A DNA stretch of 64,000 bases from Candidatus Altimarinota bacterium (lineage in GTDB: Bacteria > Patescibacteriota > Gracilibacteria > BD1-5 > UBA6164). A model generated the notes under the pieces. That model was not told the DNA's origin and did no database searches. It was given only the letters and a program-made list of their open reading frames with translations. The number at the start of each line of letters is the position of its first letter. The first letter of the stretch is position 1. The stretch lies in the NCBI GenBank assembly GCA_025210615.1, contig JAOARJ010000002.1, forward strand, positions 1 to 64,000, read 5' to 3'. Position numbers and translations under genes: made by a program. Of this stretch, positions 33,051 to 49,516 are shown one piece after another.

Positions 33051-34454
33051 ATGGAAATTTTAGATTTAGAAGATTTAGAAATAATAGAAAATATTTTAGA
33101 AAACTTATCTGAAAGCGAAATTAAAGAATATATTTACAGTAAAAGTTATTATGATATAGAATTTTTTGGGGACTATTTTTTGTATCATTTTAAGAAAAAA
33201 GATTGAAAATTTATCAAATCACCGAATTTTCACAAACAGATATGGAAAAATTTAGATAGTGAAAAAAATATAAATATTATAATTCCGAGATGACATGGAA
33301 AGACAACTTCTATTATTATCTGGATGTTATGGGCTTTATTATACGAAAAACATAAAGAAATATTATATATAGCGTCTAGTAATTTATGAGAAGAAACTAT
33401 ATGAAAAATAAAAAAAGAGCTTGAAGAAAATGAGTATATTTTAGAAATATTTGGGAATTTATCACCAAATAATGAAACAAGAATAAAAAAAAATAAAACA
33501 AAAAAATGGAGACAAAAACAGCTTGAATTAACAAATTGATGTAAAATTCAAACTTTATCAAAAGGACAATCAATAAGAGGGAAGCGTCCTTCGAAAATTA
33601 TTATTGATGATCCTCAAGAAAATAGTGATGTTGAGTATAGGGAAGCGACCGAAAAATTTAATACTTGGTTTTTTACTTCTCTTTATAATACGCTTTTGCC
33701 GTGAAGTAGTGTTTGCTCAGTGGGAACAATTATCTGAAATTTATGTTTAGTAAAACACCTTCGTGATGAAAAAAAGTGGAAAACTTTAGAGTATAAAGCG
33801 ATAAAAAATAATAAGCCTTTATGGCCTTGACTATGGAATAAAAAGGCATTATTAGAAAGAAAAAAGATATTATGAACAGCTTGTTTTAATCAGGAATTTT
33901 TAAATATTCCACTATCAAAAGAAAATACGGTTATTAAAGAACAGTGGCTTAAATACTATAATAAATTGAGTTTTAAGGATTTTGAACAGGTTATTATGGC
34001 TGTTGATCCAGCGATTAAAACGAGTGAAAAAAATGATTTTACTTGAATTACAATAATTTGAGAAAAAAATAATAAAAAATACGTAATTTTTTCAAAAAAT
34101 ATAAAATTGACACCGAGAAAATTAGAGGAATATATTATAGAATTAAATAAAAAACATAGGCCTACTAGAATAATACAGGAATCAAATATTGAAGTGAAGT
34201 TACTTGAAGATTTAAAGAAAAAATGATTGCCAATTATGTGAGTTAGGGCGAATAAAGATAAATATTCTAGACTTCTTGAAGTGTCAAATTTTTTGGAATA
34301 TGGGGAAGTATTTTTTAGGGGAGAAAAAGATGAGGAATTATGCTACCAGCTTACGAATTTCCCTGATATAAAACATGATGATTTATTGGATAGTTTTGTT
34401 TATTGTTTGAATTATTTTAATAGTGAAAATAATAACAAAATAGTTTTAATATAA
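33051..34454 (+). CDS. Phage terminase large subunit
   Basis: 467 residues. ATPase: NIIIPRGHGKTTSIII (Walker A-like, Arg 80 to Thr 85, a Gly encoded by TGA), LYIASSN, Walker B KIIIDDPQ; nuclease: MAVDPAIKTSEKNDFTGITII (metal-binding Asp), IIQESN and the final KHDDLLDSFVY. These are the Terminase_6/RNase H-type packaging-enzyme motifs. No portal, capsid, tail or integrase gene is found within the window, so this terminase is orphaned. Uses TGA as Gly, so it is long established in, or adapted to, this host code. Confidence 0.9.
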
Positions 34455-34493
34455 AAAGGCGAGGATAGTTGAAAAAAAGCAGGCTATCCTCGC
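34453..34493 (-). terminator. Terminator of the candidate RNA
   Basis: GCGAGGATAG (34459-34468) and CTATCCTCGC (34484-34493) form a perfect 10-bp stem; on the minus strand it is followed by CTTTTTAT. The T-run overlaps the stop codon of the terminase gene. On the plus strand the hairpin has no T-run, which assigns it to the minus-strand transcript. Confidence 0.85.
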
Positions 34494-34677
34494 TTGTGGA
34501 GAAATGGGAAATTGTGATTAATATATTTTCCCTTTCTAGTCTTTTTAGTAGAAAAACTGGCTCTCCATGGTGAAATACTTAATAAAGTACCACTTTATAA
34601 TTCCTTTAGTGTTTTTAGGATTATAAGGGTTACTTTTTAGAAAGTATTTCATTCTTTTTACGCTTTTCTAGCGTAGA
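34453..34677 (-). ncRNA. Candidate structured non-coding RNA, antisense-convergent to terminase
   Basis: Minus-strand unit of about 220 bases with promoter and terminator and no open frame. On the minus strand from 5' to 3': hairpin TACGCT/AGCGTA (34675-34659); a long hairpin closed by GAAATACTT/AAGTATTTC (34650-34642 with 34580-34572), with AAAGTA/TACTTT inside and a further long imperfect stem; a three-way junction closed by TGGAGA/TCTCCA (34567-34562 with 34502-34497) holding ACTGG-type and GGGAAA hairpins; and a 10-bp terminator stem. It resembles no family I know. Nearest genes are the terminase (convergent) and an XRE-like gene. Confidence 0.65.
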
Positions 34678-34682
34678 AGATT

Positions 34683-34709
34683 ATTATATGATTTAAAAAA
34701 TTTAGTCAA
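34683..34709 (-). promoter_or_regulatory. Promoter of the candidate RNA
   Basis: Minus strand TTGACT (34709-34704), 15-base spacer, TATAAT (34688-34683). Confidence 0.65.
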
Positions 34710-34734: not shown

Positions 34735-35220
34735 ATGTTGCATAAATATGTGAGTGAATATATTGATAAATATGGCTTAAAAAAGCTGCATAACGAAACT
34801 TGAATCACAAAAGTAATTTTACTTGATATAGCTAAAAATAAAAAAAATAAAAAATATTTTACAAATACATTGAATATTCTATATGATTTTTTCAAATTAA
34901 AGAAATGAGATGAATTTTATAGACAAAATTTTAAAAAATGGAATCCGAAAACTCCCAGTTTATTTGGGAATTTAATAAGAACAAAAAGGCTTCAAAAATT
35001 TATGAGTTTAGATGATTTATCAAGGGCGATTAAAGCTGATAAAAGATGACTTGCTAGAATAGAGGCTTGAGATAGTCTTCCGAGCGAAAATTCTTGGAAT
35101 ATAAAACATATTTTTTTATGTTTGGATTTTACTCCTGAAGAACAAGAGTTAACAAAAAATTATATTTCAACGATGAAAAAATTAAATGAAACGGTAAAAC
35201 AATATGAAGAAGTATTTTAA
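34735..35220 (+). CDS. HTH (XRE-like) protein
   Basis: 161 residues. An N-terminal helical segment ends near residue 70; residues about 84-115 look like a helix-turn-helix (RTKRLQKFMSLDDLSRAIKADKRGLARIEAGDSLP). C-terminal coil. No sensor domain. It lies next to the structured RNA promoter, back to back (the two -10 regions are about 50 bases apart), and it may regulate the module. Confidence 0.65.
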
Positions 35221-39038: not shown

Positions 39039-39140
39039 AATGTCGCGCCTTCGTCGCGTCATTAAGGGCGAAAAATTTTTTTCAAAAATAATTAAGAAAA
39101 ATTTTTCGCCCTTTGCGGAGCGAGTAAAACTCGCTCCGCA
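39039..39140. repeat. Three abutting GC-rich hairpins (REP-like element)
   Basis: Three inverted repeats abut exactly: 39039-39063 (9-base arms, one mismatch), 39064-39113 (17-bp perfect stem AAGGGCGAAAAATTTTT), 39114-39140 (11-bp perfect stem TGCGGAGCGAG, 5-base loop). The sequence is far richer in GC than its surroundings. It lies between the stop of rseP (39149) and the start of tgt (39014), both on the minus strand. There is no T-run typical of a terminator. It looks like a mobile REP or palindromic element, or an intercistronic RNA-stability element. Confidence 0.8.
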
Positions 39141-39148
39141 ACACTAAA

Positions 39149-48934: not shown

Positions 48935-48954
48935 AATAAAATTTTAAGCAAAAA

Positions 48955-48985
48955 AAAGAACCTATTAATTTAGGTCTTTTTTGTT
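48955..48985 (+). terminator. Rho-independent terminator
   Basis: ACCTA and TAGGT around a 6-base loop, flanked by GA/CT, then TTTTTTGTTTTT. Confidence 0.7.
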
Positions 48986-49033
48986 TTTATTTTATGTACT
49001 ATATGTGTAGATAGTCATTAAATAATAAATTAA

Positions 49034-49216
49034 TTAAACTGGTATAACAGAAAACGCTTGTCTCGACAAAATCCCGACTCTTTGCACTATTTGGTGCATG
49101 CAGTAATTAATAAACTGCTTGAAAGTCATCCCTTGAGATTCAGTCCATGTAAACTTTTCAGATTTATAGACAAGTTTTTCTCAATCATATTTCGCTATGT
49201 AGAACTCTTTTTCCAT
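49034..49216 (-). CDS. Small 60-residue protein
   Basis: Complete ATG-to-TAA frame with only one TGA glycine and a balanced composition (Gln, Cys, His, Trp) unlike random AT-rich sequence. Soluble, helical, no motif. It has a convincing promoter upstream on the minus strand and is more GC-rich than its surroundings. Function unknown; a phage-like or toxin-antitoxin origin is possible but unsupported. Confidence 0.6.
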
Positions 49217-49248
49217 AAGCAAATAGGTTAATATTAAACTGCACTTAT

Positions 49249-49277
49249 AGTGTAGCATAATTATTTTTTTATTGCAA
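49249..49277 (-). promoter_or_regulatory. Promoter of the 60-residue gene
   Basis: Minus strand TTGCAA (49277-49272), 17-base spacer, TACACT (49254-49249). Confidence 0.6.
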
Positions 49278-49285
49278 GTATATTT

Positions 49286-49313
49286 TTGACTTTTTTATTA
49301 TTTTATTTATAAA
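49286..49313 (+). promoter_or_regulatory. Plus-strand promoter upstream of hairpin region
   Basis: TTGACT (49286-49291), 16-base spacer, TATAAA (49308-49313), divergent from the minus-strand promoter at 49277. Would give a transcript entering the hairpin array at 49341. Confidence 0.55.
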
Positions 49314-49317
49314 TTTA

Positions 49318-49487
49318 AAAATGATTTTATGTAAAAGTAAAAGGGTAGATGAAAAGGCCAATCCTCACATTTACCCTTATATGAAATTTTTGAGATTACC
49401 CCTGTAGGGAGGGTAAGATAATCTCAGAAAAATTCTTAAAAAAATCTCGATTTTCTTCACTGTGTTTTTAACAGAAAGAAAATGAGA
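49318..49487 (+). ncRNA. Candidate structured transcript
   Basis: Three hairpins follow the plus-strand promoter: AAGGGTA/TACCCTT (49341-49347 with 49372-49378), GAGATTA/TAATCTC (49392-49398 with 49419-49425) around an inner CCC-loop-GGG, and a long composite hairpin (49445-49487). The third also serves as terminator of the minus-strand gene. No plus-strand frame and no plus-strand terminator is visible, so the strand and extent are uncertain. Confidence 0.4.
49436..49487 (-). terminator. Terminator of the coiled-coil protein gene
   Basis: On the minus strand a stem TCTC / ATTTTCTT / CTGT with complementary AAGAAAAT and GAGA (49487-49445) is followed by seven T. It lies 30 bases after the stop at 49517. 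Confidence 0.75.
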
Positions 49488-49516
49488 CTCTAGTGTTTAA
49501 CTTATTCAAATTTATT

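Follow-up and report, generated by a model that had tools for sequence, protein, structure and literature searches.

The window, that is, the whole analysed DNA stretch of 64,000 nucleotides, comes from a genome of 1.25 Mb (completeness 96%) and has a GC content of 24%. Its reading frames stay uninterrupted only when TGA is translated as glycine (code 25), a reading that the original prediction did not give and that is supplied here. Judging by the genetic code, the host is probably a Gracilibacteria- or SR1-type bacterium. Shine–Dalgarno sequences are absent before all 32 of the 32 gene starts read in the window, and A/T-only stretches are found there instead. The putative RNA unit is located on the minus strand between two plus-strand genes, terL and an HTH gene (Table 1). 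The TerL protein matches phrog_38 with an E value of 1.4e-73 and is a terminase of the classical two-domain class (Terminase_6N/6C).

Table 1. Coordinates of the RNA unit (34709-34453, minus strand) and of its neighbouring genes in the window.
Feature	Position	Strand	Description
terL, terminase large subunit	33051-34454	+	467 aa in code 25, full-length frame
Intrinsic terminator	34453-34493	-	stem-loop 34493-34459 with 10 perfect pairs (6 G-C) and a 15-nt loop, then T5 at 34457-34453
H3, three-way junction	34497-34567	-	71 nt; 7-bp closing stem and two arms
35-codon ATG ORF	34545-34652	-	inside the RNA unit; P 0.024 in shuffles
H2, nested hairpin	34571-34651	-	81 nt; perfect 10-bp basal stem
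H1, 5' hairpin	34653-34680	-	core stem 34675-34659
Promoter	34683-34709	-	-35 box TTGACT 34709-34704, spacer 15, -10 box TATAAT 34688-34683
HTH gene	34735-35220	+	161 aa; homologues directly 3' of terL in related phages and prophages

A minus-strand unit with a promoter, several stems, and a terminator had been predicted, and each element lies where the prediction had put it or no more than a few bases away. The promoter scanner gave an alternative reading of the promoter at the same site (AATAAT, spacer 18). Transcription would start at about 34676, as estimated from the -10 box. The predicted fold contains the expected hairpin, long nested stem, and three-way junction (H1, H2, and H3). The terminator, a perfect stem of 10 bp with T5 after it, is present as well. 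Its T-run does overlap the terminase stop codon (34452-34454). On the minus strand, the region 3' of the terminator is antisense to terL and no gene lies downstream on the strand of the RNA; thus, the unit is not the leader of a nearby gene.

The strongest single argument for the RNA unit is its promoter. The strict promoter pattern, TTGACN{15,18}TATAAT, has four sites in the 64-kb window, and each of the three others is upstream of a gene or tRNA on the same strand. Genome-wide, 55 sites were found against 14 for the reversed control. Among the 30 strict sites read across the genome, 22 have a gene or tRNA on the same strand no more than 120 nt downstream; they include the site of the tRNA-Asp pair of the window, whose promoter spacer is 15, as in the RNA unit. 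The few strict sites without a same-strand gene soon after them, that of the RNA unit included, may be regarded as candidates for RNA genes. The oriented terminator is unique: on the two strands of the 64 kb, there is a single perfect 10-bp stem with at least five G-C pairs and a T tail, and none of six Markov sequences contains one.

Other strict promoter sites deserve mention in their own right. At L115 (G000:C4:400000-402500), a strict promoter (C4:401096-401070, minus strand) is followed by approximately 190 nt of strong hairpins and a terminator; neither a same-strand gene downstream nor an Rfam match was found, and this unit is a second candidate RNA gene. L114 (G000:C4:158500-164500) contains five strict promoters within 1.4 kb (C4:160626-162031). 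Two of them, at 161248 and 162005, precede look-alike units that combine motifs of the AAAGGAGGT type with a long hairpin and a terminator and are adjoined by ORFs of 136-152 aa. Used as a filter, the strict promoter pattern may offer a simple route to further RNA genes in such genomes, and a few others are already indicated.

The minus-strand fold has an energy of -61.9 kcal/mol against a mean of -36.2 (sd 4.1) for shuffled sequences, which corresponds to a z of -6.32; none of 200 shuffles folds as well. The z values of 140 stretches of the same length sampled across the window have a mean of -0.4, an sd of 1.3, and a minimum of -5.8. The fold of the RNA unit is more than chance and is an outlier of the window. 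The GC content of the RNA body is 32%, against 18% in the other intergenic regions and 25% in coding sequence; long, GC-enriched intergenic regions are the filter of a published structured-RNA pipeline (PMC8632094). The plus strand has a still lower energy (z -7.0), with 13 G-U pairs against 2 on the minus strand. Since the plus strand folds at least as well, the choice of strand rests on the promoter and the terminator.

Strong hairpins can also be noted elsewhere in the window. Between the tgt-like and rseP-like genes, both on the minus strand, a short intergenic region with a GC content of 35% (39063-39148) carries two adjacent long, near-perfect hairpins; the 231 nt around it fold at -70.7 kcal/mol, the strongest fold of the window. 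The longest intergenic region of the window (48935-49516, 582 nt, GC 26%) is situated between convergent genes and contains several strong hairpins; the stretch from 49301 on its minus strand has a z of -5.8. This region is another RNA-gene candidate.

The search for relatives of the RNA gave no homologue. The original prediction had recognised no family, and the Rfam check agrees with it: in Rfam 15 (pRNA, 6S, tmRNA, RNase P, SRP, and others), no family reaches its gathering threshold, and relaxing the E value to 10 adds nothing beyond matches to unrelated families at the level of chance. BLASTN against its own genome and 98 related genomes yielded only short A/T-rich matches, and the unit is a single-copy sequence, not a dispersed repeat of its genome. 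The better BLASTN matches (L051, L052, L053, and L024) are attributed to chance, their context being unrelated genes or frames. No homologue of the RNA was found in the phage and plasmid collections, and DNA patterns gave only unrelated matches in viral and genome contigs. A covariance model (R1) was built from the single sequence of H2 and H3. Over 147 genomes, its best foreign matches do not exceed 24 bits (E 0.007-0.01 per genome), as chance predicts; the match in G016 (L057) comprises H3 alone, just before a ribosomal-protein gene, and was judged to be due to chance. When the covariance model search was extended to related phage loci, to the pattern matches, and to 353 genomes of the class, it revealed nothing further. 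The power of a one-sequence model is low, and it may have overlooked distant relatives. Neither in the 353 class genomes nor in the searched collections of phage, plasmid, viral, and genome sequences was a homologue found, and the RNA is thus a single known example. It is probably a real but lineage-specific RNA.

Comparison with related phages concerns the position of the unit. The nearest terminases to TerL, with 45% identity in G015 and 48% in the viral contig L080, are both found in phage-like sequence. In the TerL search of viral contigs, a single query sequence found none, while a two-sequence alignment found L080-L083. The gene order in L080, L073, and L074 is TerS-like, TerL, HTH, portal-like, and L050 continues with protease-like and capsid-like genes, named by reading their translations without a family search. 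In two other genomes, the gene directly after TerL encodes an HTH homologue. In the code-25 phages and prophages L073, L074, L080, L050, and L082, the TerL–HTH order is kept although the proteins are only 27-48% identical. The TerL–HTH spacing is 9-33 nt in L080, L073, and L074, and the genes overlap in L050 and L082, whereas here the spacing is 280 nt and is occupied by the oppositely directed RNA unit. No RNA was found beside the nearest TerL loci, and no covariance model match nearby. The terminase had been called an orphan, and it is one, since no HK97-type capsid family is found in the genome.

Two features expected of a moron are present at the locus: the position between two genes that adjoin each other in related phages (overlapping or 9-33 nt apart in five loci, 280 nt apart here) and, in silico, a promoter and a terminator of its own. 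The TerL–HTH arrangement thus appears to be that of a moron in a prophage since stripped of most of its genes. The insertion reading rests on loci only 33-48% identical in protein.

With a probability of roughly 60%, we consider the region from 34676 to approximately 34453 of the minus strand to be a non-coding structured RNA of about 220 nt that is transcribed on its own, a moron-like insertion retained after prophage loss. In silico, this reading is favoured by the promoter, the terminator, the fold, the lack of a downstream same-strand gene, and the position in an otherwise tight phage operon. What had been proposed was a novel structured RNA next to an orphan terminase; its free-standing transcription unit is well supported in silico, and its lack of an Rfam match stands. 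Counted against the reading are the lack of a homologue, the better plus-strand fold, the 35-codon ORF, and the two other strong-hairpin intergenic spots. The RNA unit would have entered a phage late operon between terL and the HTH gene, the usual next neighbour of terL in phages of Gracilibacteria-type bacteria. As the operon later decayed and the remainder of the prophage disappeared, the unit would have been kept. Transcribed from the minus strand, it would yield a stable RNA acting in trans, for which protein binding seems more likely than long antisense pairing because the RNA is mostly paired and its few loops are A/U-rich. The most obvious candidate for a regulator of the RNA promoter is possibly the divergent HTH gene, 25 nt beyond the -35 box.

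The same region can be explained in other ways. The functional structure may belong to the plus strand, as a folded 3' segment of the terL transcript or as a spacer controlling read-through from terL to the HTH gene. The lower energy and the G-U count, taken alone, would favour the plus strand; H1 read on this strand scores as a weak terminator-like hairpin, and terL and the HTH gene form one operon in relatives. However, the orientation of the strong promoter and of the T-run favours the minus strand, the GC-rich hairpin has no T-run after it when read on the plus strand, the extra G-U pairs are mostly at stem ends, and such a spacer is absent in relatives. We therefore consider a plus-strand function unlikely, though worth keeping in view. 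It is improbable that there is no RNA gene here at all, only a cluster of hairpins in the spacer DNA at the end of terL, such as a bidirectional terminator or the remnant of a mobile or repeated element. The strong hairpins at 39063-39148 and 48935-49516 and the single-copy state of a unit without relatives speak for such a cluster. Against it stand the promoter of its own that directly precedes the first hairpin and the division of the unit into four domains, the last of which is an oriented terminator; nor is the unit a dispersed repeat of this genome. The statement that the unit has no coding frame was not strictly right, given the 35-codon ORF of Table 1. This ORF could make the transcript a short mRNA for a basic, aromatic 35-aa peptide, for instance, a stably folded, type I toxin-like message. 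Its ATG is about 24 nt past the predicted transcript start, and a frame of this length is infrequent in shuffles. The missing Shine–Dalgarno sequence is uninformative because the gene starts of the window show none. Nevertheless, no homologous peptide was seen and no membrane span is evident. A non-coding RNA is preferred, though not strongly, because the start codon is at the foot of H2, which fills most of the frame, and because H3 and the terminator are mostly outside it; a peptide message appears distinctly improbable.

A functional link of the RNA to the terminase is not supported, because the phages with the closest TerL proteins have no RNA at this place. This bears on the idea of a packaging RNA or guide working with the terminase, as phi29 pRNA does with its ATPase. 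Like the RNA described here, phi29 pRNA is a structured phage RNA; the two are similar in size, and each has a packaging ATPase gene close by. In favour of such a role are only this adjacency and the full-length TerL frame. The terminase is of another, classical class, there is no Rfam match to pRNA, and the HK97 capsid is absent from the genome, so that a phi29-type packaging RNA was set aside, and a packaging role of any kind seems very unlikely. An equally slight chance is given to a single domesticated module made up of the RNA, the full-length orphan terminase, and the HTH protein, in which the RNA would work with a phage-derived packaging nuclease, for example, to ward off other phages.

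If the RNA is real and was kept after phage decay, it is a candidate for a phage RNA useful to the host. In bacteria that translate TGA as glycine, small RNAs appear to have received little study: full-text literature searches yielded no work on them. One example with no homologue settles no general question yet.

Among known systems, RCd22, the RNA partner of prophage AbiF in Clostridioides difficile, is 132 nt long and located in the leader of abiF (PMC12373285). Like the unit described here, it comes from a prophage and has a promoter and an intrinsic terminator of its own; unlike RCd22, the present RNA has no gene following on its strand, and no Abi_2 protein (PF07751) is encoded in the genome, so an AbiF-associated RNA was set aside. 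A CRISPR-related RNA was considered as well; the search for a CRISPR-Cas locus covered Cas1 (PF01867), which is absent from the genome. Further parallels are offered by prophage-encoded small RNAs, for example, the Pas sRNAs of E. coli prophages (PMC13192938), and by moron loci (PMC7067206). The RNA of this study differs from them in belonging to a code-25 bacterium, and the likeness seen is one of organisation: in each case, a unit with its own promoter and terminator lies within a prophage and is extra to the phage core genes.
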